From positions 992,001 through 1,056,000 of the forward strand of contig JAHHDT010000005.1 in NCBI GenBank assembly GCA_019739225.1: a stretch of 64,000 bases of DNA, in the 5' to 3' direction. The notes under the pieces are model-generated. The model made no database searches. It saw only the letters and a program-made list of their open reading frames with translations, and was not told the DNA's origin. A program made the position numbers and the translations under genes. Numbering within the stretch: position 1 is the first letter of the stretch; every line of letters begins with the position of its first letter. The stretch comes from Aquamicrobium sp. (GTDB lineage Bacteria; Pseudomonadota; Alphaproteobacteria; Rhizobiales; Rhizobiaceae). Shown here piece by piece: positions 12,266 through 60,020 of this stretch.

Positions 12266-13228
12266 ATGACCGATACGCCTTCGCCCGGCCGCCAGTTCGC
12301 CTTCCTGCTCGTCGACAAGTTCTCGATGTTCTCGCTCGCGGCGGCGATCGACACCGTGCGCTCGGCCAACAGGTTGCTCGGTCGCGACTTCTACGGCTGG
12401 ACGACGGTCTCCGCCGACGGCGATTCCGTCATCGCGTCAAACGGCCTGCCCATCAAGATCGACTACGCGATCACAGACCTGCCGGTTGTTGACATCCTTT
12501 TCGTCTGCGCCGGGCTCTCCTACGAATTTCCCGGCAAGTCCAAGGTGCTCGGCGCGCTTCGCTCGCTGGGGCGTCGCGGCGCGGCCCTCGGCGGGCTCTC
12601 GGTAGGCTCCTACCTGCTTGCGGAAGCCGGCCAGCTCGAAGGTCACCGGTGTACGATCCACTGGGAGAACAAGGCGGGCTTCAAGGAGCGGTTTCCGGAG
12701 ATCGACTGTACCGGAAACGTCTTCGAGATCGATCGGAAGCGATACACATGCGCGGGCGGCACGACCTCCATCGACCTGATGCTCGAGATCATCCGTACCG
12801 ACTTCGGCCAGAACCTCGCCAATGAGGTCGCCAACCAGTTCCAGCACGAACGCATCCGCTCGGCGGGCGATCGCCAGCGGGTCGGCCCGGAACGTGATCT
12901 GACCGGCAAGTCCGAGAAACTGCGGCGGATCGTCGAACTGATGGCGGACAACCTCGACGAACCCTATTCGGCCGTTCAGCTAGCCAAGTCCGCCGGTCTC
13001 TCCGTGCGCCAGGTGGAGCGCCTGTTCCTGCGTCATCTCAACATGACGCCAGGGCGCTACTACATGCGGCTGCGGCTGGAGCGCGCGCGTGAATTGTTGC
13101 GCCAGACCAATATGCCGATCCTCGACGTGGCGATCGCCACCGGCTTCACCTCGCATTCCTATTTCGCGCAGAGCTACCGGCTGCTGTTCGGCCGCCCGCC
13201 GAGCGAGGAACGGCGGACGACGTACTGA
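12266..13228 (+). CDS. GlxA-family AraC-type transcriptional regulator
   Basis: This 320-residue regulator has an N-terminal DJ-1/PfpI-like domain (residues about 10-190; GALGGLSVGSYLLAEAGQL around the nucleophile elbow, with Ser instead of Cys, so probably not enzymatic). A C-terminal AraC helix-turn-helix follows (LAKSAGLSVRQVERLF and ATGFTSHSYFAQSYRLLFG). GlxA-type regulators commonly control nitrogenous-compound catabolism. It starts 40 bases after folD and sits directly beside the BMP transporter/N-demethylase cluster, so it is a plausible regulator of that cluster. Confidence 0.9.
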   Translation: MTDTPSPGRQFAFLLVDKFSMFSLAAAIDTVRSANRLLGRDFYGWTTVSADGDSVIASNGLPIKIDYAITDLPVVDILFVCAGLSYEFPGKSKVLGALRSLGRRGAALGGLSVGSYLLAEAGQLEGHRCTIHWENKAGFKERFPEIDCTGNVFEIDRKRYTCAGGTTSIDLMLEIIRTDFGQNLANEVANQFQHERIRSAGDRQRVGPERDLTGKSEKLRRIVELMADNLDEPYSAVQLAKSAGLSVRQVERLFLRHLNMTPGRYYMRLRLERARELLRQTNMPILDVAIATGFTSHSYFAQSYRLLFGRPPSEERRTTY

Positions 13229-13308: not shown

Positions 13309-14394
13309 TTACGCAGGCGGGATGACGCCCTCGACATACCAGTCCATCGACAGCAGATCCGCGTCGGTCAGCGTCACGCCGGCGGCGACCTTCTCGGCGC
13401 CGGTATGGTCGTTGATCGGGCCGGTGAAGATGTGCATCGAGCCGTCGATCTGGCCGTTCTTGACGGCCTCGGCTGCGGCAACGACATCGTCGGGGATCGA
13501 CTCGTTGTAGTCGCCGATTACGACTTCGCCTTCCTTGAGGCCCGGCCAGCTATCCTTGCTCTCCCAGGTGCCGTCGATGACCGCCTTGGCGGTCGCGGCA
13601 TAGTGCGGGCCCCAGTTGTCGATGATCGAGGTGAGCTGCGCCTTCGGCGCGAAGGCGCTCATGTCTGCGCCCTGGCCGAAACCACCGACGATGCCGCGCT
13701 CCTCGGCCACCTGCAGGGCGGCAGGGCCGTCGGTGTGCTGGGCGATGACGTCGATGCCCTGGTCGATCATGGCGCGGGCGGCGTCGGCCTCGCGCGCAGG
13801 GTCGTTCCAGGTCGAGATGTAGACGGGCGTGATCGTGAAGTCCGGATTCACCTTACGCGCCGCCAGCACGAATGCGTTGACGCCCATAACGACTTCGGGG
13901 ATCGGGAAGGAGCCGATATAGCCTGCTTTGCCGGTCTTCGACAAATGGCCGGCGAGCGTGCCGCAAACCGCGCGGCCTTCGTAGAACCGCGCATTGTAGG
14001 TCGCGACGTTCTCGGAGCGCTGGTAGCCGGTCGCGTGCTCGAACTTCACGTCTGGGAACTGCTGCGCGATCTTGATGACGTAGTCGCCGTAGCCGAAGCT
14101 GGTGGCGAAGATGAGCTTGCAGCCGGCCTGCACGAGTTCGCGCATGACGCGTTCGCAGTCAGGGCCCTCGGCGACGTTCTCGACGAAGACGCTCTCGACG
14201 GCGTCGCCCAACTCCTGCTCCATGTAGAGACGGCCCTGGTTATGGGCGTAGTTCCAGCCATTGTCGTTGATGGTCCCGATATAGATGAAGCCGACCTTGA
14301 GCGGTTCGGTCTGCGAGAAGGCTTTTTGGCCGAGCAGCGGCAGCGCGGCGGCTGCACCGCCGATCTTAAGGACGTTACGACGTGATAGTGTCAT
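13309..14394 (-). CDS. BMP-family ABC transporter substrate-binding protein (nucleoside/purine type)
   Basis: The 361-residue protein is a BMP/PnrA/Med-family periplasmic receptor. It has a Tat-type signal (SRRNVLKIG, hydrophobic stretch, cleavage near FSQ) and the family pattern VGFIYIGTINDNGWNYAHNQ, IFATSFGYGD, and GTLAGHLSKTGKAGYIG. Characterised family members bind nucleosides or related purines. It is the last cistron of a complete ABC importer (ATPase, two permeases, receptor, in transcription order). Because the importer diverges from an NdmCDE-like operon, an N-methylated purine or similar heterocycle is a reasonable ligand guess. Confidence 0.9.
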   Translation of the reverse strand: MTLSRRNVLKIGGAAAALPLLGQKAFSQTEPLKVGFIYIGTINDNGWNYAHNQGRLYMEQELGDAVESVFVENVAEGPDCERVMRELVQAGCKLIFATSFGYGDYVIKIAQQFPDVKFEHATGYQRSENVATYNARFYEGRAVCGTLAGHLSKTGKAGYIGSFPIPEVVMGVNAFVLAARKVNPDFTITPVYISTWNDPAREADAARAMIDQGIDVIAQHTDGPAALQVAEERGIVGGFGQGADMSAFAPKAQLTSIIDNWGPHYAATAKAVIDGTWESKDSWPGLKEGEVVIGDYNESIPDDVVAAAEAVKNGQIDGSMHIFTGPINDHTGAEKVAAGVTLTDADLLSMDWYVEGVIPPA

Positions 14395-14448
14395 GTTGGT
14401 TTCTCCTGAGCTTGTGGTTCGGTCGATCGAAGGAGCTCCTCGCCCACT

Positions 14449-15378
14449 TCAATTGCTTGGCAGGAAGGGCTTGCCGAGGCAGGCCGGCGCATTGGTCGAG
14501 GCATCGCGACGAATCGATATGAGCACCAGCACGGCGATCGTCGCGAGATAGGGCATGGCTGCCCAGAGTTCCGACGGGATGGCGGTCAACGGGCCGCCGC
14601 CCGCCTTGGCGTAGAGTTCCATGGTCATCACGAGGCCAAAGAGGTAAGCGCCCGCCAGCAGGCGGAACGGCCGCCACGAGGCGAATACGACGAGCGCGAC
14701 CGCGATCCAGCCGCGTCCGGCGGTCATGCCTTCGGCCCACTGTGGCGTCAGTAGCAGCGGGAAGCACGCGCCGGCTATACCGGCCATCGCGCCGCCGAAG
14801 GCAATCGCGCCATAGCGTATCGCACGCACCGGGTAGCCGATCGAATGCGCCGACAGATCGTTCTCGCCCACCGCGCGCAGGATCAGCCCGCCGCGGGTGC
14901 GCTTCAGGAACCACCAGACCACGACGACCATGATGAGTGAGAAATACACCAGCGGCGAATAGCCGAACAGGACGCGCAGATACGGATGCGTCGTCAGTTC
15001 GGCCGGGAAGACCGAGCGGAAAAGGCTGACGGGCATTGCCGAATAACTCTGGCCGGCGAGTGCCGAAAAACCGGTGCCGAAGATGGTCAGCGCCAGGCCG
15101 GTCGCGGTCTGGTTTGCCGACAGGCTGAGCGTCAGGAAGCCGAAGATGAGCGATGACAGCAGCCCGGCGATGGCGGCGACCAGCACCGCAAGCCAAGGAT
15201 TGCCAGTCGTGAACATGGTGATGAAGCCTGTCACCGCACCGATGAGCATCATGCCTTCGACACCGAGATTGAGCACCCCGGCGCGTTCCACCACCAGTTC
15301 TCCCAGCGCCGCGATCAGGATCGGCGTCGACGCGACGATCAGTGTCATCGTGACGGCGATCAGAAGGCCGATTGTCAT
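14449..15378 (-). CDS. ABC transporter permease (BMP/nucleoside type, second subunit)
   Basis: This 309-residue membrane protein matches the YufQ-like permease of BMP-family importers, with the hallmark [20 protein letters not shown] near residue 25 and [18 protein letters not shown] in the cytoplasmic coupling loop. I start it at ATG 15378 (MTIGLLIAV); a much longer open frame upstream only shadows the other permease. Its start overlaps the preceding permease stop by four bases (ATGA). Confidence 0.9.
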
Positions 15379-16478
15379 GGCTGGGCCTCCGCTGCTGCAC
15401 GTACCCCGGCTGCCGGCTGACTGGAAACGCGCCGTACCCGGTACCGTACGAGAATGTCGCCCGCCAGCAGGAAGAAAAGCAGCATCGCTTGGAAGATGCC
15501 GCTGGCCGCGCTCGGCAGTCCGGTCGTCGTCTGGGCCAGGTCGCCGCCGACAAACGTTACAGCGAGAACGATTGCCGCGAAGATGACGCCGATCGGGTGC
15601 AGCCGGGCAAGGAAGGCGACGATGATGGCTGTGAAGCCGTAATTGGTCGGGAAGCCGGGCACCATGCGCTGGAACGGCCCTGCGACCTCCAGCACCCCTG
15701 CAAGTCCGGCGAGCCCACCGCTGACCAGCAGCGCCAGCCAGATCGTGGCATTGGTCGAAAACCCCGCATAGCGAGCGGCCTTCGGCGCCGCGCCCACGAC
15801 CTTGATGCGGTATCCGAAGACTGAGCGCGACATCACGAACCAGACGACGAGCGCGACGAGAAGCGCCACCGGCACGCCCCAGTGCACGATCGTCCCGGGG
15901 ATCATGTTGGGCAGGCGCGCGGCCTCGGAAAAGACACGCGTCTGGGGAAAGCCCATGCCCATCGGATCTTTCCACGGGCCTCGCACCACATAATAGACAA
16001 GCTGGACCGAAGCGTAGGTCAACATCAGCGACGTCAGGATTTCGTTGACGTTGAACCGCGTCTTGAAGAATGCCGGAATTGCCGCATAGGCCATGCCGCC
16101 GGCCATGCCCGCCAGTACCATCGCTGGCAGGATCCATATTCCGGTCATGCCGTGGGTGGCGAGCGCAACCCACGTGCCGGTCAGACCGCCGACGATATAT
16201 TGCCCCTCGGCGCCGATGTTCCAGACGTTCGCGCGATAAGCGACGGCCAAGCCTACGCCGATGATGATCAGGGGCGAGGCTTTCACCGCAAGGTCCTGCC
16301 AGCGGAAGGTGCTGGTCAGCGGCGTAATGAAAATCTGCTGCACGGCGGCGAGGCCGTCATAGCCGATCAGCGAGAAGACGAGCGCGCCTGCGATCATCGT
16401 CAGTGCCAGCGCGCCGAACGGCGTTGCGTAGAGCATCAGCCTGCTCGGGGCAGGGCGCTTCTCAAGCCGGAACGGCAT
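15375..16478 (-). CDS. ABC transporter permease (BMP/nucleoside type, first subunit)
   Basis: A 367-residue membrane protein of the YufP-like branch, with many hydrophobic segments and the conserved YRANVWNIGAEGQYIVGGL motif near residue 80. The coupling loop carries VVGAAPKAARYAGFS, similar to the other subunit. It overlaps the ATPase gene by 17 bases and the second permease by four, so all transporter subunits are translationally coupled. Confidence 0.9.
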   Translation of the reverse strand: MPFRLEKRPAPSRLMLYATPFGALALTMIAGALVFSLIGYDGLAAVQQIFITPLTSTFRWQDLAVKASPLIIIGVGLAVAYRANVWNIGAEGQYIVGGLTGTWVALATHGMTGIWILPAMVLAGMAGGMAYAAIPAFFKTRFNVNEILTSLMLTYASVQLVYYVVRGPWKDPMGMGFPQTRVFSEAARLPNMIPGTIVHWGVPVALLVALVVWFVMSRSVFGYRIKVVGAAPKAARYAGFSTNATIWLALLVSGGLAGLAGVLEVAGPFQRMVPGFPTNYGFTAIIVAFLARLHPIGVIFAAIVLAVTFVGGDLAQTTTGLPSAASGIFQAMLLFFLLAGDILVRYRVRRVSSQPAAGVRAAAEAQP

Positions 16479-18006
16479 CGGAAGCCTCCGTTTCGCCGTG
16501 GATGCCGCCCATCAGAAGGCCGACCTCTTCAACGTCCACCTCCGCAACCGGCATAGCGCGCGACAGCCGGCCTCCGTTTATGACCGCCATCGTGTCGCAG
16601 AGCGCGAGCAGTTCGTCCAGGTCCTGGGAGATGATGACGATCGCCGAACCGGCCTGGGCCAGGTCGACCAGCGCCTGATGGATCGCCGCCGCGGCGCCCG
16701 CGTCGACACCCCATGTCGGCTGGCTGACGACCAGCACCGACGGTCGCTGTAGTATCTCGCGGCCCATGACGAACTTCTGCAGATTGCCGCCCGAGAGTGA
16801 GCCGGCGATCGCGCCGGGTCCCTGTGCCTTGACGCCGAACGTCTCGATCACCTTGCCGGCGAAGGCTTCGGCCTTGTCGCGGCCGATCAGCCCTAGCGTG
16901 ACCATGTCGATGCGATCGCGTGCCGTCAGCACCGCGTTGTCGGCAAGGGTGAAGTCGCCGACCGCTGCATGGCCGTTTCGCTCCTCGGGCACCGCCGAGA
17001 GGCCTTTGCTTCGACGCGCCGAAACATCGGCCGTGCCCATCGGCTTGCCGTCGACGGCGACCGCGCCGGCTTCGCTGGCCGGCGTCTCGCCCGAAAGCGC
17101 CTCCAGAAGCGCGTTCTGGCCATTGCCTGCAACGCCCGCGATGCCAAAGATCTCGCCGGCCCGTACCGCGAAGCTGACATGCCGGACGGGCACGTCGAAA
17201 TGGTCCGCCTGCACTGTGGAAAGTTTCGAGACGACGAGACGGGGCTCGCCAAGCGCGCGGTCGCGGCTGCGGGTAAGGTCGCGCAGGCCGGCGCCGATCA
17301 TCTTTTCCGCCATCGAGCGGGAGGTTTCCTGACGGGGATCGCAGGTATGCACCAGCTTCCCCGCGCGCAGGATCGTCGCCGTGTCGCAAAGTGCCTGAAT
17401 CTCGTGAAGCTTGTGGGAAATGTAGAGAATCGAGCAACCCTGTGCGGCCAGCTGGCGCAGCACGCCGAAAAGCTGCTCCACCTCCTGAGGGGTAAGCACG
17501 GATGTCGGCTCGTCCATGATCAGCAGCTTGGGTTCGAGCAGCAGCGCGCGCACGATCTCGATTCGCTGGCGCTCACCGACGGACAGTGTCTCGACCGTAC
17601 GGTTGGGATCGAGCGTCAGGCCGTACTCGTCCATGATCGCGCTTATGCGCGCGCGCAACTCGCGCGACGGCACCTTGGAGTCGATGCCGAGCGCGATGTT
17701 CTCCAATACGCTCAGGGCCTCGAAAAGCGAGAAGTGCTGAAAAACCATGCCGATGCCGAGGCGGCGCGCGGCGTTGGGATTGGTTATGGTGACCGGCTCG
17801 CCGTTCCAGCGAATCTCGCCCGCGTCCGGCTGCATGATCCCGTAGATCATCTTGACGAGCGTCGACTTGCCGGCTCCGTTTTCGCCAAGCAGAGCATGTA
17901 TCTCGCCCGGCTTCACCCCGAAGCTGACACTGTCGTTGGCAAGCACTCCCGGAAATCGTTTCGTGATGCCGGTGAGTTCCAGCCGAAACGGCGTATCGCA
18001 GTTCAA
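16462..18006 (-). CDS. ABC transporter ATP-binding protein, two fused nucleotide-binding domains
   Basis: The 514-residue protein has two ATPase halves. The first has a canonical Walker A (GENGAGKST near residue 41), signature LSVGERQRIEI and Walker B LLIMDEPT. The second has the degenerate P-loop GVAGNGQNALLEAL, signature LSGGNLQKFVMGREI and VLVVSQPTWGVD, as is normal for sugar/nucleoside importers in which one site is inactive. It is the first gene of the importer operon. Its ATG lies about 63 bases from the NtrC-like site in the divergent control region. Confidence 0.93.
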   Translation of the reverse strand: MNCDTPFRLELTGITKRFPGVLANDSVSFGVKPGEIHALLGENGAGKSTLVKMIYGIMQPDAGEIRWNGEPVTITNPNAARRLGIGMVFQHFSLFEALSVLENIALGIDSKVPSRELRARISAIMDEYGLTLDPNRTVETLSVGERQRIEIVRALLLEPKLLIMDEPTSVLTPQEVEQLFGVLRQLAAQGCSILYISHKLHEIQALCDTATILRAGKLVHTCDPRQETSRSMAEKMIGAGLRDLTRSRDRALGEPRLVVSKLSTVQADHFDVPVRHVSFAVRAGEIFGIAGVAGNGQNALLEALSGETPASEAGAVAVDGKPMGTADVSARRSKGLSAVPEERNGHAAVGDFTLADNAVLTARDRIDMVTLGLIGRDKAEAFAGKVIETFGVKAQGPGAIAGSLSGGNLQKFVMGREILQRPSVLVVSQPTWGVDAGAAAAIHQALVDLAQAGSAIVIISQDLDELLALCDTMAVINGGRLSRAMPVAEVDVEEVGLLMGGIHGETEASDAVPA

Positions 18007-18068: not shown

Positions 18069-18087
18069 TGCACCAAGTTTTGGTGCG
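18069..18087. promoter_or_regulatory. NtrC-type binding site in divergent transporter/N-demethylase promoter
   Basis: The sequence TGCACCA-AGTTT-TGGTGCG matches the NtrC consensus TGCACCA-N5-TGGTGCA at 13 of 14 defined positions. It stands in the 187-base gap between the divergent ABC importer and the oxygenase gene. This suggests nitrogen-limitation control of one or both operons. I could not find a convincing sigma-54 promoter beside it. Confidence 0.6.
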
Positions 18088-18193: not shown

Positions 18194-19096
18194 ATGAAGC
18201 CCGACAAGTTGATCGATCCCGTCACCCGCGACCTCTGGCAGGTCATCGCGGCAACCGACGAAGTGCCTGTCGGCGCCGTTGAAACGACGCTGCTGCTGGA
18301 TGCGCCTATTGCCCTGACCCGAGACGAACAGGGGCAGCCGGTCGTCTGGCTCAGAACCGTCGAGGAGGCCGGAGACGAGATCGACGCGGACGAAATCGTC
18401 GAGCGGCTCCCGGTTCTGGTGCGCTACGGCTATATCTGGACGAGCCTCGGCAAGCCGCCGACGGACATCTTCCCGATTCCCGAATACGCCGAGCCCGACC
18501 GAAAGAACATGAGCTGCGGGTCGATCGGCGTGAACGTTTCCGCACCGCGCGCGGTCGAGAACTTCCTCGACATGGGGCATTTCCCATATGTCCACACCGA
18601 CATTTTGGGCGCCGAGCCTCACACGGAGGTGAAGGAATATGATGTCGAAGTGTCGGAGGAGCGCGACGAGGTGCTCGCCACGCGCTGCCGCTTCTTCCAG
18701 CCGCGCGCCGCGCTCTCGGCGACGGAGGGCATCGAGGTGGAATATGTCTACCGCGTCCCGCACCCGTTCTGTTCGGTGCTCTATAAATCCTGTCCGGAGG
18801 ACGAGAGCCGCCGCGACGTGATCGCCATCTTCCTGCAGCCGATGACGCAGGACCGCTGCCGCGCCCATCTGCTGCAGTCGATGGTGGATTCGGTGTCCAC
18901 AATCACGGAGCTGCGCCGGTTCCAGCAGACGATCTTCGGCCAGGACAAGCCCATCCTGGAAAACCAGATGCCGCGCCGATTGCCGCTCGACCCGCGCGCC
19001 GAAACCCCCATCCGCGCCGACACGTCGGCGATTGCCTATCGCCGCTGGCTCAGCCGCAAAGGCATCGCCTACGGCGTCATCCCTCAAGCCGGCTGA
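18194..19096 (+). CDS. NdmC-like oxygenase subunit: mononuclear-iron domain without a Rieske centre
   Basis: This 300-residue protein resembles the alpha subunit of Rieske non-haem iron oxygenases of the VanA/Ndm group but has no Rieske cluster motif: the N-terminal scaffold is present (WQVIAATDEVPVG, then VRYGYIWTSLG), yet both the C-X-H and C-X2-H ligand segments are missing. The catalytic iron site is intact: NFLDMGHFPYVH gives N123, D126, H129 and H134, and D251 (IFGQDKPILE) is the likely carboxylate ligand. Pseudomonas putida CBB5 NdmC has the same deletion and depends on the Rieske domain of NdmD. I chose ATG 18194; the upstream in-frame ATG at 18113 adds unrelated sequence. The substrate is inferred, not shown. 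Confidence 0.85.
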   Translation: MKPDKLIDPVTRDLWQVIAATDEVPVGAVETTLLLDAPIALTRDEQGQPVVWLRTVEEAGDEIDADEIVERLPVLVRYGYIWTSLGKPPTDIFPIPEYAEPDRKNMSCGSIGVNVSAPRAVENFLDMGHFPYVHTDILGAEPHTEVKEYDVEVSEERDEVLATRCRFFQPRAALSATEGIEVEYVYRVPHPFCSVLYKSCPEDESRRDVIAIFLQPMTQDRCRAHLLQSMVDSVSTITELRRFQQTIFGQDKPILENQMPRRLPLDPRAETPIRADTSAIAYRRWLSRKGIAYGVIPQAG

Positions 19097-19116
19097 TAGC
19101 GCATATCGTTGAAACC

Positions 19117-20814
19117 ATGACCCTTTCCATCGACGATGCCCGCTGGCATCCCATCGCCTCCAGTGACGACCTGCCTTTCCGGCACGTCTTCCACGGCCAG
19201 TTGCTTGGTCGCGAGCTCGCGGTGTGGCGCGCCGACGACGGCAATGTGAACATCTGGGAAAACCGCTGCCTGCATCGTGGCGTGCGGCTTTCGATCGGCA
19301 TCAACGAGGGCGGCGAGCTGAAATGCCAGTATCACGGCTGGCGTTATGCGAACCGCTCGGCCGGCTGCACCTACATTCCCGCTCATCCGGCCGACGCGCC
19401 CGCCCGCCGCATCCAGAACAGGACCTATCCGGTGCGGGAAGCATTCGGGCTCGTCTGGTCGGCTCCGAGCGAAAACGCGGCATTTCCGGACCTGCCTCGA
19501 GCAGAGGACCGGGCGTGGCTGCCGCTACGCCCAATGCCTGTCAACGCGGCGCCTGAAGATGTGGCCGCGGGCCTTGCCAAGGCCTTGGACGCAGAAGGCC
19601 CGCACGGTCTGACCGTGCGCGCTGGCGACGCAGTCTATTTCGTGCAGCCGGTCGATTCAGGCCGCAGCGTGATCCGCGGACTTGTTTCCGATCCGACGAC
19701 CGACACGATCCCACTGTTGCGCGAGAAGAATCGCACTCTGGCGAAGCTGCGGGACCGGCTGGAGCGTTCGGCCGCACGCAAGCCTGCGCCAGCCCCGCTG
19801 CAGCCCACCTACGAGAAGGTCTCGGCCGAACTTGCCACGATGCCCGACATCGCCGTGCCGCACGGCGGCACAATGATCGTCGTCGTCAAGCGGAAGTGGC
19901 AGACGGCGCGCGGCGTGACCGGTTTCGAGCTTGCCGACCGTAGCGGCAGCCACCTGCCGACCTTCCAGCCCGGGGCGCATATCGACGTTCACCTGCCGAC
20001 CGGATTGGTCCGCCAGTATTCGATCACCAACGGTCCCGGCGAATTGCTGAGCTATGTGATTGGCGTCAAGCGGGAGGAAGTGTCCAAGGGCGGCTCGCAC
20101 GCGCTGGCCGATACTGTCCGCGAAGGCGACCTGCTGACGATCTCGGAGCCGCGCAACAATTTCCCGCTCCGCCGCGATGCAACGCGCACCCTACTTGTCG
20201 CGGCAGGCATCGGCATCACGCCGATCCTTTCCATGGCCCGGTTCCTCGACAAGTCGGACCTGCCCTACGAACTGCACTACTTCGTCCGCGATGCCGACAC
20301 GGCAGCTTTCCGTGACAGGCTGGATGTCCTGCGCGGCAAGGTAACGGTGCATGATGCGCTCGCCCGCGACGCGATCAGGCAGACCATCGGCGAAGCGCTC
20401 GGCCGCTGGAGCTTCGCACAGCACGTCTATATCTGCGGGCCGGGCTCGATGCTGGAGATGGTGCGGGCGCTCGCAGCCGGTCTCGATTGGCCGGACGAGG
20501 CCGTGCATTTCGAGTATTTCAAAAACGACCGGGTGATCGACGACAGCTCCTCCTTCGAGGTCGAGCTTGCCCGTTCCGCGATGACGCTACAGGTGCCCGC
20601 TGGCAAGACCATCCTGGAGGTGATGCGCGAGGCTGGCGTTACCGTGCTTTCATCCTGCGAGCAGGGTGCGTGTGGAACCTGCATGACCACGGTGATTGAA
20701 GGCGAGGTCGACCATCAGGACGTCTATCTCAACGAAAGCGAGAAGCGCGCAAACAAGGCGATCATGACCTGTGTGTCGCGCGCCAAATCCGCTCGCCTGG
20801 TGCTGGATATCTGA
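19117..20814 (+). CDS. NdmD-like reductase: Rieske domain fused to FMN/NAD reductase and plant-type ferredoxin
   Basis: The 565-residue protein has three parts. Residues about 8-110 form a Rieske [2Fe-2S] domain with ligands C51, H53, C70 and H73. Residues about 245-470 form a phthalate-dioxygenase-reductase-like flavin/NAD module (RQYSITNGPGE, then AAGIGITPILSMARFL). The C-terminus is a plant-type [2Fe-2S] ferredoxin with C514, C519, C522 and C552. A Rieske domain on a reductase is unusual and is the defining trait of NdmD, where it serves an oxygenase partner. The gene begins 20 bases after the Rieske-less oxygenase. Together they would pass electrons from NAD(P)H to the mononuclear iron. 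Confidence 0.9.
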   Translation: MTLSIDDARWHPIASSDDLPFRHVFHGQLLGRELAVWRADDGNVNIWENRCLHRGVRLSIGINEGGELKCQYHGWRYANRSAGCTYIPAHPADAPARRIQNRTYPVREAFGLVWSAPSENAAFPDLPRAEDRAWLPLRPMPVNAAPEDVAAGLAKALDAEGPHGLTVRAGDAVYFVQPVDSGRSVIRGLVSDPTTDTIPLLREKNRTLAKLRDRLERSAARKPAPAPLQPTYEKVSAELATMPDIAVPHGGTMIVVVKRKWQTARGVTGFELADRSGSHLPTFQPGAHIDVHLPTGLVRQYSITNGPGELLSYVIGVKREEVSKGGSHALADTVREGDLLTISEPRNNFPLRRDATRTLLVAAGIGITPILSMARFLDKSDLPYELHYFVRDADTAAFRDRLDVLRGKVTVHDALARDAIRQTIGEALGRWSFAQHVYICGPGSMLEMVRALAAGLDWPDEAVHFEYFKNDRVIDDSSSFEVELARSAMTLQVPAGKTILEVMREAGVTVLSSCEQGACGTCMTTVIEGEVDHQDVYLNESEKRANKAIMTCVSRAKSARLVLDI

Positions 20815-20815
20815 C

Positions 20816-21475
20816 GTGACCATCAAGCTTTACGACTTCGAACTGTCGGGCAACTGCTATAAGCTGCGGCTGCTCATGAGCATTCTCAAGGTGCCCTACG
20901 AGGTGGTGCCGGTGGATTTCTATCCCGGCCGCGAGCACCGCGCTGACTGGTTCCTCGAGCTCAATCCTTTCGGCCAGTTGCCGGTCCTGCAAGACGGCGA
21001 GGAGACACTGTCGGACAGCGGCGCGATCCTCGTTTATCTGGCGCGTAAATACGACAGGTCAGGCCGGTGGTTTCCCGACGATCCGGCGACGATGGCGGAA
21101 ATCCTGCGCTGGCATGCCGTCGGCGACGACTTGACGTCGACCGTATCCGCCGCGCGGCTGGTGCTGGGCATGTTCTACGATTTCGATCTGGAGAAGGCGC
21201 AGAAAGGCGCGCACCGCATCTTCCGCATCATGGACGAACATCTCTGGTTCGGCGAAAAGGATGGGCGCGACTGGCTTTGCCGGCCGGCCCATCCGACGAC
21301 GGCTGACATCGCCTGTTTTCCCTATGTGATGCTTTCCGAAGAGGCGGACGTCTCGCGCCAGGATTATCCGGCGCTTCGCCGCTGGACGGATCGCGTGCGC
21401 CGCATACCGGGTTTCACCGTCATGTCCGGCATATTCCCGGCAGGGCCGGCACGCGAGGCGCAGGCCGCATCATAA
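20816..21475 (+). CDS. NdmE-like glutathione S-transferase-family protein
   Basis: This 219-residue protein has an N-terminal thioredoxin-like GST domain (IKLYDFELSGNCYKLRLLMS, NPFGQLPVLQDGEETLSDSGAILVYL, quoted here in separate parts) and a helical C-terminal domain. It starts with GTG at 20816, one base after the reductase stop, so it is co-translated with it. In the CBB5 NdmCDE complex the GST-like NdmE is needed for assembly rather than for glutathione chemistry; the same role is inferred here from gene order. A GC-rich 6-bp hairpin (21495-21509) follows without a T-run. Confidence 0.85.
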   Translation: MTIKLYDFELSGNCYKLRLLMSILKVPYEVVPVDFYPGREHRADWFLELNPFGQLPVLQDGEETLSDSGAILVYLARKYDRSGRWFPDDPATMAEILRWHAVGDDLTSTVSAARLVLGMFYDFDLEKAQKGAHRIFRIMDEHLWFGEKDGRDWLCRPAHPTTADIACFPYVMLSEEADVSRQDYPALRRWTDRVRRIPGFTVMSGIFPAGPAREAQAAS

Positions 21476-21639: not shown

Positions 21640-23421
21640 ATGCGGGCGATTGTGATGGGTCTTGCTGTGGCGGGAATGGTGGCGGCATCGTCTCCGGCAG
21701 CGCTTTCGGCCGAACGGACGATCATCGTCCTGGATGCTTCGGGTTCTATGTGGGGCCAGATCGACGGCAAGCCCAAGCTGGAAATCGCCCGCGAAACGCT
21801 GCGATCCGTATTGCCGACAATCCCGGCTGACCGCGAACTCGGGCTGATGGCCTACGGCCACCGGCAGAAGGGAAGCTGCACCGACATCGAACTGGTGGTC
21901 GAACCGGCTGCGGGCACCGCCGACGCCATCGCGGCTGCGGCTGCCAAGATGAAGTTTCTCGGCAAGACGCCGCTCTCCGATGCGGTGCGCCAGGCCGCGG
22001 AGGCGCTGCGCTATACCGAGGACAAGGCGACCGTTGTCCTCATTACCGACGGTATCGAGACCTGTAACGCAGACCCCTGCGCGCTCGGCAAAGAACTCGA
22101 GCAATCGGGTGTCGACTTCACCGCCCACGTTGTCGGTTTCGGCCTGTCGCGCGATGAAGGCCGTCAGGTCGCCTGCCTCGCCGAGAATACCGGCGGCCGC
22201 TATATCCAGGCAAGCGATGGGCAAGGGCTGAACGAAGCTCTCAGCGAGACCGTCGCCGCCGCGCCGGCTTCGGCGCGCGCGGAGCAACCGGAAAAGCCGG
22301 AACCTGTCGTCCTGCCCGAGGCGACGGTGACTGCGCCGGACTCCGCGCCGATCGGCTCTGGCATAGAGGTATCGTGGACTGGTCCAGGTACTGGCAACGA
22401 CTACATCGACATCGTGCCCGCGGGATATGACGAAGTGTCCGGCGAGCTTGCCTATGCCTATGTCGATCGCGGCACCCCGCTGCCGATCCGCGTGCCTGGC
22501 AAGGTTGGCGACTACGTCGTGCGATATGTCTGGGAGGGGCCGGACGGTCGCCACGTGCTGGCTTCGAAGCCGATTGGCGTGATCGACAGCGAGGTTGCGC
22601 TTGTCGCGCCACCGAAAGTCTCGGTCGGAGAAGCGTTCAATGTCGAATGGAAAGGCCCCGACTCCGGCGGCGATTACATCGACATCGTGCCCGCCGGCTA
22701 TACCGAGGTTTCAGGCGAAATTTCGTACTTCTATGTCAAGGGTGGCAATCCGGCGAAGATTGAGGCGCCGGGCAAGGCAGGCGACTACCAGATCCGCTAC
22801 ATCCTCGAGGGGCCGGACGGGCGCCGCATGCTGACGTCGATCCCGCTGGAAGTTTCCGACGCGGCTGTGAGCCTTGCCTTTCAGCCGACTGTCGGCGCGG
22901 GCGAGAAGATCGACATCCATTGGACGGGACCGGCTTCGAGCGGCGACTATCTCGACCTCGTGCCCGAAGGACACACGGAGCCGAGCGGCGAGACGGCCTA
23001 TTTCTACATCGACGGTTCGCCAGACGGCGAGACGGCGACCATGCAGGCGCCGGGCGATGCCGGTGAGTATCAGGTGCGCTACGTTCTGGAAGCTCCCGGG
23101 GGGCGACGCGTGATGGCCAGCCAACCGATCAGGGTGACGCCTGCCGCCGCGACGCTCAGGGCCCCCGAAGCCGTGGAGACCGGGACGACCTTTGCTGTCG
23201 AATGGACGGGCCCCAGGGCCGATCAGGACTACATCGATCTGGTGCCTCAGGGGCATTCGGAGACCTCAGGCGAACTCGCATACTTTTATGTCGCGCAGTC
23301 GGAGGACGGCACCGCGAAGCTGACGGCGCCCGAAAAACCTGGAGCTTATGAGCTGCGTTACGTTCTCGAAGCGCCCGGTGGACGTCGGGTTCTGACCCGG
23401 GTTCCGATCACGGTTCAATAG
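21640..23421 (+). CDS. Secreted von Willebrand factor A protein with four C-terminal repeats
   Basis: The 593-residue protein has a signal peptide (cleavage near LSA, residue 24), a VWA domain (residues about 26-200) with an intact MIDAS start DASGS (residues 32-36) and a TDG motif, a short Pro/Glu linker, and four tandem units of about 91-94 residues. Disulfide-forming cysteines occur in the VWA part. It probably acts in the periplasm or at the surface through metal-dependent protein binding. It is the only gene in its local unit, 164 bases after the N-demethylase operon. No function is known to me for this architecture. Confidence 0.8.
22324..23418 (+). repeat. Four tandem ~91-94-residue coding repeats in the VWA protein
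   Basis: The units begin near residues 229, 319, 410 and 504. Each contains W(T/K)GP at spacings of 91, 91 and 94 residues (W246, W337, W428, W522 region), then DYIDxVPxG, SGExxYxY, and a closing RYVxExPxGRRxL. They look like small beta-sandwich domains. The last three are closest to each other, which suggests internal duplication. Confidence 0.85.
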
Positions 23422-23461
23422 AGTTCAGGCTGGCAGGCGAGTTGTCTGCCAGCCTGAAAAT

Positions 23462-25281
23462 CTAACCGAAGGCACCTGCACCCGCATCGGCGCGTAGTGC
23501 CAGGGCGCGCATGCCGGCGAAAAGTTCGCGGCCCATGCCGAACCCGTTGTCCGAAAGATCCGGTGCGGCGGGCGCGCGGCTTGCCAGATACGCCGTCCCC
23601 CACCTTGACCTCCAGCGTACCGGCCTCCGCATCGAGGCGGATCACGTCGCCATCCTCGATCCGGCCGATCATGCCGCCGTCGAGCGCTTCCGGTGTCACG
23701 TGGATTGCCGCCGGCACCTTGCCGGATGCGCCTGACATGCGTCCGTCCGTCACCAGCGCGACCTTGCGCCCGCGGTCTTGCAGGATGCCGAGGACAGTCG
23801 TCAGCCGGTGCAGTTCTGGCATTCCGTTGGCCTTCGGTCCCTGAAAGCGGATGACGGCGACGAAGTCGCGGTCGAGTTGTCCTGCCTTGAACGCCTCGTT
23901 CAGCGCCTCCTGGCTGTGAAACACTAGCGCGGGAGCCTCAATGACACGGTTCTCCGGCTTTCACGGCCGAAACCTTAATGATCGCCGCCCCTAGATTGCC
24001 TTTCAGCACCTTCAGGCCGCCGCTCGGCTGGAACGGCTTGCCCGCCGTCGTCAGCACCTTGTCGTCGCCGCTTTTCTCGGGGGCCGGTGCGCGCGAGACC
24101 GAGCCGTCGTCAGCCAGATGCGGCTCGATGGCGTAGTTGCGCAGTCCTGCGCCCCAGACCGTGCGCACGTCCTCATGCAGCAGCCCGTCATCCAGCAGTT
24201 CGCGGATGAGGAAGCCCATGCCACCGGCAGCATGGAAATGGTTCACGTCGGCAAGCCCGTTGGGATAGACCCGCGCCAGCAGCGGCGTTGCGTCCGAGAG
24301 GTCGGATATGTCCTGCCACGTGAGCCTGATGCCGGCGGCAGCCGCCATCGCGATCAGGTGGATTGTGTGGTTGGTCGACCCGCCGGTGGCGTTGAGGCCG
24401 ACCACGCCGTTGACGATGGAGCGTTCGTCAATCATGTGCCCCACCGGCGTGAACTCGTTGCCGAGCGCGGTGATGGCCAGGGCCCGCTTGGCAGCTTCCC
24501 GGGTCAGCGCGTCGCGCAGCGGCGTGTTGGGATTGATGAAGGATGCGCCCGGCGTGTGCAGGCCCATGATCTCCATCAGCATCTGGTTGGAATTGGCCGT
24601 GCCGTAGAAGGTGCAGGTGCCAGGTCCGTGATAGGACTTGGACTCTGCCTCCAGCAATTCGGCGCGACCCACCTTGCCCTCTGCATAGAGCTGGCGCACG
24701 CGCGCCTTCTCATCATTGGGAAGGCCCGACGTCATCGGCCCTGCCGGGATGAACACCGCCGGCAGGTGGCCGAAGGTCAGCGCCGCGATCAGCAGGCCGG
24801 GGACGATCTTGTCGCAGACGCCGAGATAGACGGCGGCATCGAACATGTTGTGCGACAGGCCGATCGCCGCCGACATGGCGATGACGTCGCGCGAGAAGAG
24901 CGAGAGCTCCATGCCCGGCTGGCCCTGGGTGACGCCGTCGCACATGGCCGGAACCCCGCCGGCCACCTGCGCCACGCCGCCCGCGTCAGCCGCCGCCTGC
25001 TTGATGAGCTGCGGGAAGGTTTCGAACGGCTGATGCGCCGAGAGCATGTCGTTGTACGACGTCACGATGCCGAGATTGGCGACGCGGTCTCCGGCAAGTG
25101 CTGCCTTGTCGACGGGGCCGCAGGCCGCGAAGCCGTGAGCGAGGTTGCCGCAAGACAACACCGTGCGATGTGGGCCGCTGGAAATTGCGGCGTCGACCCG
25201 CGCGAGATAGGCCTCCCGCGTCGGCTTCGACCGCTCCCGGACGCGCGCTGTGATGGCTTCGATCTCAGGTCTGGCTGTCAT
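23462..25281 (-). pseudogene. edd: Phosphogluconate dehydratase, disrupted by two frameshifts
   Basis: Edd dehydrates 6-phosphogluconate to KDPG in the Entner-Doudoroff pathway. From ATG 25281 (after AAGGACGG) the frame is normal for 447 residues, with Fe-S/active-site elements such as [20 protein letters not shown]. Near 23955 one extra G shifts the frame to an early TGA; deleting it restores [18 protein letters not shown]. Near 23600 an extra G in a GGGGG run shifts it again; correction restores [16 protein letters not shown] through the TAG at 23462. Both lesions are single-G insertions, so sequencing error is as likely as true inactivation. No second edd or eda is in the window. Confidence 0.85.
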
Positions 25282-25295
25282 GGCTGTCCGTCCTT

Positions 25296-26006
25296 TCAGC
25301 CGGCCCAATAGACGGGGACCGGCCTTTCCGCATGGGCAAAAACCGCGCTGACCGGCAGGTCGCCGCCCGGGGCAAGCGCCTTTTCCAGCACCGCGCGTTT
25401 CTCCGCCCCTTCGATATGCAGCGCGAGGAAGCGCGCTTCCAGAAGACGCCCCAGCGAGAGGGTCAGCCGCGGCTCGCCGGCGCTGTGAGCGTGAACCGGC
25501 AATACGAGAGCCTCGTTGTCCGGATCCAGCAATGCGTCGAGATTTCCGGCGTCGGGGAAAAACGAGGCGGTGTGGCCGTCCGTTCCCATTCCCAGAATGG
25601 CGGCATCGAGGGGCATCGGGAGATCGCGCAGTTCGGCAGAAGCCGCAGTCGCGGCTTCTTCGGCATTTGCATCCTTATGGTAGAGACCAACGAGCCGGGC
25701 GGCATTTGCCTTGCCTCGCAGAAGCCTGCTCCGCACCAGCGCCGCATTGGAGCGCGGCGAGCTTTCCGGAACCAGCCGCTCGTCCACGAGCGTGACGATC
25801 ACCCGTTTCCAGTCCAGCGGCTGTTGCGAGAGCGCGTCGAAGAAGAGCCCGGGGGTCGTGCCGCCCGATACCGCCAGCAGTGCCGTGCCACGATCCTTGA
25901 TGGCGGCCTCAAGAACACGTGCCACCTCTGCCGCCAGGGCAGCGGCGAGCTGCTGCGATGAGGAATATATCCGCCAGTCGGGAGATGCAGCCATCTCCCG
26001 CCTCAC
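25296..26006 (-). CDS. pgl: 6-Phosphogluconolactonase
   Basis: Pgl (DevB type) hydrolyses 6-phosphogluconolactone to 6-phosphogluconate. The 236-residue protein has [37 protein letters not shown] and the C-terminal [15 protein letters not shown], all standard. The start is GTG 26006, overlapping the zwf stop as GTGA; an ATG at 25994 is the alternative. It sits between zwf and edd in the usual rhizobial order. Confidence 0.94.
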
Positions 26007-59725: not shown

Positions 59726-59745
59726 CGCGTTCAGGTCTCAAGTAC

Positions 59746-59865
59746 ACCGCGTAACGGAAACCTCCTCCCTTCCCGATCGCGGTTCAGAAGACCGGCACCT
59801 CCTCCCGCCGGTCTCCTAACAGGAAAAGGCCGGGATCTCCTCCCCCCGGCCTTTTTCCTTTTTTA
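59746..59865 (+). ncRNA. Three tandem hairpins with CCTCCTCCC loops (cuckoo/CcsR-like RNA)
   Basis: Three hairpins follow the phasin stop. Stem 1 is ACCGCG (59746) with CGCGGT (59778) around CCTCCTCCC (59761-59769). Stem 2 is AGACCGGC (59789) with GCCGGTCT (59807) around CCTCCTCCC (59798-59806). Stem 3 is an 11-bp stem (59824-59834/59845-59855) with loop TCTCCTCCC and a T-rich tail. C-rich loops with CCUCCUCCC define the CcsR/cuckoo small RNAs of alphaproteobacteria, often processed from the 3' end of an mRNA. The loops could bind Shine-Dalgarno-like sequences. Confidence 0.6.
59824..59864 (+). terminator. Intrinsic terminator of the phasin/RNA transcript
   Basis: AAAAGGCCGGG and its complement form an 11-bp stem with a 10-nt C-rich loop, followed by T, CC and six Ts. 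It closes the phasin mRNA and the third CCTCCTCCC-type hairpin. Confidence 0.8.
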
Positions 59866-59943
59866 GGCTTGGCCTGCGGCGCATCGGGCTTGAAATCGCC
59901 GCCGATAGTCCGTAAGAGCCTCGCCAGCCAGAGCTTGGCGCGT

Positions 59944-60020
59944 GCGGTTGTAGCTCAGTTGGTTAGAGCACCAGATTGTGGATCTGGGGGTCGCTGGTTC
60001 GAGCCCAGCCAACCGTACCA
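59944..60020 (+). tRNA. tRNA-His (anticodon GTG)
   Basis: The 77-nt gene folds as a standard cloverleaf, with anticodon stem CCAGA/TCTGG around the loop TTGTGGA, T-loop TTCGAGC, and an encoded CCA. The acceptor stem begins at G1 with a T immediately before it, and the discriminator base is A73. Alphaproteobacterial tRNA-His characteristically lacks G-1 and has A73, unlike most other bacteria. Confidence 0.95.

Follow-up and report, generated by a model that had tools for sequence, protein, structure and literature searches.

We analysed a 64,000-nucleotide stretch of an Aquamicrobium sp. genome (contig JAHHDT010000005.1, positions 992,001 to 1,056,000), hereafter the window, which carries three tightly spaced plus-strand genes encoding an oxygenase without a Rieske cluster, a reductase with an N-terminal Rieske domain and a GST-like protein (Table 1). 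An original prediction had placed this trio at 18194-21475 and likened it to NdmC, NdmD and NdmE of Pseudomonas putida. The coordinates are correct, and domain content and conserved ligands support the NdmC-NdmD-NdmE-like architecture.

Results

Domains and conserved ligands of the trio

All three features of this architecture are present: a ligand-bearing oxygenase without a Rieske domain, a Rieske-bearing reductase and a GST-like third gene, which starts one base past the reductase as predicted, with GTG at 20816. The oxygenase matches the Pfam families VanA_C and, weakly, KshA_C, and no Rieske domain; the reductase matches Rieske at residues 10-92 and Fer2 at 484-557. Since the Pfam matches put the Rieske and iron sites on different chains, a canonical Rieske oxygenase alpha subunit is ruled out.

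The iron residues named in the original prediction (H129, H134, D251) are correct. D126, H134 and D251 are kept in 94/94 and H129 in 93/94 representative oxygenases (drawn from 212 genes by thinning at 88% identity); in an alignment of 48 oxygenases the first three are invariant and H129 nearly so. The motif D-x2-H-x4-H is present in 211 of the 212 genes, and we take its spacing to be that of the bridging aspartate and two histidine ligands of Rieske oxygenases. D126 would presumably be the aspartate bridging to the neighbour's Rieske cluster, and D251 the third iron ligand. The Rieske ligands predicted for the reductase (C51, H53, C70, H73) agree with its Pfam match, and their columns are invariant in 39/39 aligned reductases.

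The original prediction had named a Rieske motif in the oxygenase as the finding that would count against it. We found none in the gene, and CxH(10-30)CxxH occurs in 0/214 oxygenase-only open reading frames (ORFs) of the wider family, which rules out a motif overlooked in the window gene alone.

Table 1 Features of the trio and of the divergent importer region in the window.
Feature	Position	Strand	Basis or remark
Oxygenase, NdmC-like, without Rieske cluster; VanA_C/SRPBCC catalytic domain	18194..19096	+	300 aa
Rieske-domain base without cluster-binding loops or ligands (oxygenase residues 1-90)	18194..18463	+	hhalign and model
D126-x2-H129-x4-H134 of the oxygenase: presumed iron ligands and bridging Asp	18569..18595	+	alignments
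D251 of the oxygenase: presumed third iron ligand	18944..18946	+	alignments
Reductase, NdmD-like: Rieske, apparent catalytic-domain remnant, flavin/NADH domains, plant-type 2Fe-2S ferredoxin	19117..20814	+	565 aa
Rieske [2Fe-2S] domain of the reductase, ligands C51 H53 C70 H73	19144..19392	+	Pfam and alignment
Apparent Rieske oxygenase catalytic-domain remnant, no iron ligands (reductase residues 160-225)	19594..19791	+	hhalign
GST-like protein, NdmE-like, GTG start	20816..21475	+	1 base past reductase TGA at 20812-20814
GlxA/GbdR-like AraC regulator, convergent to importer operon	12266..13228	+	335 bits to GbdR, below the cut-off of 480
BMP-family substrate-binding protein, Tat signal	13309..14394	-	Pfam Bmp, E = 5e-52
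ABC permease 2	14449..15372	-	domain scan
ABC permease 1	15375..16478	-	Pfam
ABC ATPase, two ABC domains, first gene of divergent importer operon	16462..18006	-	Pfam; start as listed
GCACCAA-N3-TTGGTGC inverted repeat, candidate operator, divergent promoter region	18070..18086	.	7-bp arms

The split between the chains is not clean

The predicted absence of Rieske ligands from the oxygenase holds, but the chain does not simply lack the domain, as a ligand-free base is retained. The first 90 residues align with the Rieske domain of the reductase (hhalign probability 97.6%, E = 3e-12 to 5e-12) with a score that 0/100 column shuffles match; the strands of the base remain and the cluster-binding part is gone. 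In the AlphaFold2 model of the oxygenase, the predicted local distance difference test (pLDDT) averages 85.6 overall and 95-98 for residues 11-90. Foldseek aligns about 330 columns of this model with Rieske oxygenases, at template modelling (TM) scores by query of 0.73-0.78 for SxtT/GxtA chains and 0.62-0.66 for NdmA chains. Clean domain fission is thus ruled out by the retained N-terminal base.

The reductase, for its part, resembles the end of the catalytic domain (oxygenase residues 205-245) at residues 160-225 (hhalign probability 82.5%, E = 1e-5; 0/100 shuffles). Aligned with NdmA-like oxygenases only, this apparent remnant gives no significant match (0.5%); the whole N-terminal part aligns with them at 99.7% over residues 4-224, the Rieske domain running into the remnant. 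The same region is common to stand-alone Rieske proteins of the family (99.0% to the reductase). The reductase model (mean pLDDT 83.7, predicted TM score 0.56) superposes loosely on SxtT/GxtA chains, over 267-313 columns including gaps (TM 0.49-0.53 by target length, root-mean-square deviation 5.7-11 Å).

With a Rieske base left in the oxygenase and an apparent catalytic remnant in the reductase, it is probable that two Rieske oxygenase subunits have partly decayed in a complementary fashion, one now being the oxygenase and the other the Rieske part of the reductase, and that no single protein was cut. The support for the oxygenase half of this statement is strong, and the retained base is among the strongest new points of this work.

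A lineage separate from NdmC-type trios

In a quick tree of the 94 representatives, which omits matches below 190 bits or 200 residues, the window oxygenase is sister to Devosia enzymes inside an alpha clade (45 rows, Shimodaira-Hasegawa-like approximate likelihood ratio test support 95). This clade is separate from the NdmC-type enzymes of Klebsiella pneumoniae (L038) and P. putida (L039) (support 100), which stand in as proxies for NdmC of strain CBB5. Across its three proteins the window trio is 83/74/81% identical to that of Devosia L109 and 46/37/52% identical to the K. pneumoniae trio. The latter adjoins an NdmB-like enzyme (E = 1e-186 to NdmB) and has an NdmD-like ferredoxin, so that we regard its cluster as a methylxanthine cluster.

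NdmD could be compared through its ferredoxin part, the sole portion of it in the PDB. For the window reductase it ranks third among PDB matches, by a small margin (81 bits after 90 and 85), while for the K. pneumoniae reductase it ranks first (122 bits). One strand of the catalytic domain also differs: H190 is found in 44/45 and C193 in 42/45 alpha-clade oxygenases, as against R190 in 22/22 beta-clade and 2/2 NdmC-type enzymes and I193 in 2/2 NdmC-type enzymes. Clade, identity to the proxy trio and the third-ranked ferredoxin match together rule out orthology with NdmCDE. The likeness to NdmC, NdmD and NdmE proposed originally therefore stands for the architecture but not for the clade, and by its sequence the window trio belongs to a separate lineage that shares a known plan.

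As predicted, the trio stands without NdmA or NdmB: an NdmB-like query found no orthologue of either in the window genome, its four matches at E up to 0.001 being the window's own oxygenase and reductase and two proteins 25 and 26% identical to it. Homologues of the window oxygenase occur in 73/297 sampled genomes of the same GTDB family and in 0/4 other sampled genomes of the genus; as the best named relatives are from Devosia, this distribution suggests that the trio was acquired by horizontal transfer. Since homologues recur in the family, and trios in named genomes, the trio is not a chance association.

Domain arrangements in the wider family

We scanned neighbourhoods in the window, in 17 plasmid stretches (L031-L047) and in 59 genome stretches (L048-L106), 77 sequences in all, and also around L107-L186, loci of named genomes that are the best 80 of at least 529 relatives. 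Because some genomes entered this locus set twice, it is redundant, and counts over the representatives (88% identity) are more reliable.

The family shows four domain arrangements, the window trio representing one of them. In a range of 6.5 kb from the oxygenase, 101 loci have a fused Rieske-reductase, and 29 (one of them, L114, at a contig end) have a stand-alone Rieske protein and no local reductase. Rieske protein and reductase are both separate at 6 loci, of which 5 are real (L064-L068); in the sixth, L034, a single reductase is read in two frames. At a single Variovorax locus (L041, 13310-15803) a stand-alone Rieske gene is followed by an oxygenase-reductase fusion, the reverse of the NdmD fusion. 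The stand-alone Rieske proteins (n = 40) have 142-243 residues, mostly at least 200. At 25 loci no Rieske protein lies within 6.5 kb; it is slightly further away at some (e.g. L054, L058), and others end with the contig (L108). The Rieske-less oxygenases of L056, L057, L175, L179 and L183 lie beside BMP importers, with no Rieske protein in the available stretch, and may borrow one encoded elsewhere.

At many loci two oxygenase genes stand in tandem, and these belong to the alpha clade (45 rows) and to a beta clade (22 rows). Such pairs share one Rieske-reductase (e.g. L034, L048, L089, L127), mostly combine the two clades and differ in the catalytic-strand residues. In Sinorhizobium meliloti AK57 (L034, 13998-15765) and Cupriavidus EM10 (L044, 14691-16441) the Rieske-reductase is annotated as two overlapping genes. 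S. meliloti 1021 has one or more homologous trios, with matches at several places. The enzyme plan is present in rhizobia, Devosia, marine metagenome-assembled genomes (MAGs) and actinobacteria.

Neighbour genes of related loci

Related loci often lie beside BMP importers, and a minority beside genes for formaldehyde clearance or guanine breakdown. Among the 101 fused-type loci, 98 have a GST gene within 6.5 kb and 58 a BMP protein nearby. A same-strand FrmA-type formaldehyde-glutathione dehydrogenase lies within 6.5 kb at 24/101 of these loci and 18/61 representatives. Scores reach at least 590 bits for 19 of the 24 copies, the rest being cut or lower (62-502 bits), and both copies tested pass the curated model. 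FrmA has a single close match in the window genome (5.35 Mb) at E up to 1e-120, or two under the looser limit of E up to 1e-60, and judged from this copy number chance adjacency would be about 0.25-0.5%. No FrmA lies within 6.5 kb of the 29 stand-alone-Rieske loci.

Guanine deaminase lies within 9 kb at 16/94 representative clusters (24/156 loci), an adjacency with at least 10 state changes on the tree, gains and losses together. Of nine neighbours tested, eight pass TIGR02967; the remaining one, a Nocardioides copy, falls short of its cut-off (366-374, cut-off 375.4) but passes another guanine deaminase model, NF006679. Eight second amidohydrolases were tested at guanine-deaminase loci in the stand-alone-Rieske clade: six pass NF006055, the model for 8-oxoguanine deaminase, and those of L035 and L052 pass no model. 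For the Rhizobium etli type (L036, L042, L062, L070) NF006055 is the best match, below cut-off. Six loci (L054, L058, L081, L083, L084, L086) combine an 8-oxoguanine deaminase and a guanine deaminase match with a split oxygenase and a BMP importer, model-tested in L054 and L058. Nucleobase symporters occur at the actinobacterial loci L153, L178 and L184, and a xanthine-dehydrogenase-like gene at the Nocardioides locus. The neighbours of the Devosia locus L109, scanned for purine genes, gave lactate-dehydrogenase-like, radical SAM, HlyD, short-chain dehydrogenase and two-component genes, among others.

Importer, regulator and surroundings in the window

The predicted BMP-type importer beside the trio is real; it is complete and divergent (13309-18006). 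Between the listed starts of the two operons lie 187 bases, in which the inverted repeat is a possible operator. Whether the AraC regulator belongs to the system is uncertain; some trios of Sinorhizobium (L032, L045) likewise have a GlxA-type regulator about 11 kb away. A vitamin B6 importer is ruled out by scores short of the NCBIfam cut-offs (binding protein 57.5/400, ATPase 439.9/670, permease 1 204.7/400). The nearest BMP proteins to that of the window are those of L157 (53%) and of a P. putida KF715 cluster (46%), with a branch support of 86. The KF715 cluster contains an NdmC-type trio, HpxO above cut-off and, by annotation, a nucleobase symporter and another Rieske oxygenase.

Elsewhere the window genome encodes FrmA. 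XdhABC, guanine deaminase and ureidoglycine aminohydrolase, all above cut-off, lie together on a different contig and, to judge from their sequences, could be available for use of the product. Two further features of the window are a 6-phosphogluconate dehydratase (edd)-like gene at 23415-25308 on the minus strand, which is read as two ORFs, of 456 and 169 aa, in different frames (the first of these matches ILVD_EDD_N; a frameshift, sequencing error or pseudogene), and an Alphaproteobacterial ar14 small RNA at 59742-60020, right upstream of tRNA-His.

Discussion

Proposed reaction and substrate

Some related operons adjoin guanine-breakdown or formaldehyde-clearing genes, which makes purine N-demethylation probable. 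The reading we favour, with some reserve, sees in the trio a split Rieske non-heme iron monooxygenase that carries out the oxidative N-demethylation of a methylated purine imported by the adjacent BMP importer. From ligands, domain make-up, relatedness and the neighbours of relatives, which were observed directly, we infer complex formation, electron path, N-demethylation and a purine substrate. NADH would reduce the flavin of the reductase, from which electrons would pass to its ferredoxin and then to its own Rieske cluster. This cluster would dock on the oxygenase, and electrons would cross the D126 bridge to the mononuclear iron held by H129, H134 and D251. O2 would then hydroxylate the N-methyl group, and the methyl would depart as formaldehyde. 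Together with the Rieske part of the reductase, the oxygenase would rebuild a ring, the GST-like protein acting as a structural partner.

Several observations weigh against this proposal. The structure predictions cover single chains only, and the support for the reductase half of the subunit decay, its catalytic remnant, is moderate. The regulator nearest the importer resembles, below cut-off, GbdR of choline metabolism. The window BMP protein is on a different branch from those beside guanine deaminase, and no deaminase or FrmA lies beside the window trio. BMP protein, deaminase and FrmA are likewise absent from the available flanks of the 17 closest loci (L107-L123, 16 Devosia and one MAG; L108 and L114 cut by contig ends). 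At most fused-type loci, finally, FrmA and guanine deaminase are both missing from the range scanned, partly owing to contig ends.

The suspicion in the original prediction that the substrate may differ from methylxanthines is upheld; the substrate may be of the methylguanine or of the methylxanthine type. A narrower reading, possible and clearly less probable than the general one, is that the trio demethylates methylated guanines (e.g. 7- or 1-methylguanine from RNA/DNA turnover), its chains having arisen by complementary decay of paired subunits that form a mixed ring. It would then belong to a widespread and as yet undescribed modified-guanine catabolic module comprising a BMP importer, the split Rieske demethylase, guanine and 8-oxoguanine deaminases and a formaldehyde dehydrogenase. 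A methylguanine substrate fits the wider family; the window context and the importer lineage speak against it. In mainly open-access literature we found no paper that connects Rieske enzymes to methylguanine or reports the association with guanine deaminase, nor a bacterial N-demethylation route for methylated nucleic-acid bases. Term searches of reviews returned guanine deaminase in reference lists only, and no 7-methylguanine.

That the trio acts as NdmCDE does, converting 7-methylxanthine to xanthine with plant methylxanthines as substrates, seems unlikely to us. The identical architecture and the closeness of the window BMP protein to that of the KF715 cluster, with its NdmC-type trio and HpxO, would suit this activity; but the separate clade, the 46/37/52% identity to the K. 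pneumoniae trio, the ferredoxin ranks (NdmD third at 81 bits, against first at 122 bits for K. pneumoniae), H190/C193 in place of the R190/I193 of both NdmC-type enzymes and the lack of a detected NdmA or NdmB in the window genome argue against it.

We give still less credence to a non-purine N-methyl substrate such as betaine or an N-methylpyridine. The GbdR-like regulator, the putative vitamin B6 transporter models that are the importer's best curated matches, and a betaine-aldehyde-dehydrogenase-like gene about 6 kb downstream would all favour it, each below its cut-off. On the other hand, relatives in two clades adjoin guanine deaminase, in one of them also 8-oxoguanine deaminase, some actinobacterial relatives adjoin nucleobase symporters or the xanthine-dehydrogenase-like gene, and NdmA-E act on methylxanthines according to the accessible text of PMC4408171.

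Hydroxylation of a purine ring carbon is highly improbable: the Rieske fold presumably allows both reactions and FrmA adjoins 0/29 stand-alone-Rieske loci, but FrmA adjoins 18/61 fused-type representatives, and the characterised complex of the same architecture is a demethylase (accessible text of PMC4408171).

If purine N-demethylation by the split enzyme is correct, the odd split of caffeine degraders would be a common enzyme plan, one use of which may be the recycling of methylated bases from nucleic acids. The fused, stand-alone and swapped arrangements offer a natural series in which to test how relocation of a Rieske cluster to another chain is possible with electron transfer retained. 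This family of arrangements and the guanine-catabolic neighbourhood of some relatives are, together with the imperfect split, strong new points.

Comparison with known systems

By sequence and fold, the nearest solved structures to the window oxygenase are SxtT and GxtA, whose Rieske domain is intact; their pathway is unrelated, and the likeness consists of database matches only. NdmA and NdmB share the catalytic fold and iron ligands, but carry Rieske and iron sites on one chain where the window has them on two. Phthalate dioxygenase reductase matches the flavin-NADH-ferredoxin part of the window reductase (E = 6e-69) but has no Rieske domain, its 321 residues matching residues 253-565 only.

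The NdmCDE architecture and the occurrence of trios in rhizobia were already known (PMC4408171, accessible text). The alphaproteobacterial setting pointed out originally thus holds but is not new, as NdmCDE homologues of unknown function in Sinorhizobium and Mesorhizobium were in print by 2015 in that source. These rhizobia have the same trio, and the window trio is 61-68% identical to the two rhizobial trios compared. Many rhizobial loci add a second tandem oxygenase, a GntR regulator, FrmA or guanine deaminase, whereas the window trio lacks these and is closest to Devosia.

NdmCDE of P. putida CBB5 is the 7-methylxanthine N7-demethylase (PMC4408171, accessible text). It holds three copies each of C, D and E, NdmC alone being insoluble, and per methyl group one NADH and one O2 are consumed and one formaldehyde is produced, as given in the available part of PMC10380055; as of 2026 its structure had still to be solved, according to the available part of PMC13237722. 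The window trio is like NdmCDE in its Rieske-less oxygenase, the N-terminal Rieske domain of its reductase and its GST-like third subunit, and unlike it in belonging to a clade apart from the NdmC-type proxies, with other catalytic-strand residues, no NdmA or NdmB and a BMP importer at its side.

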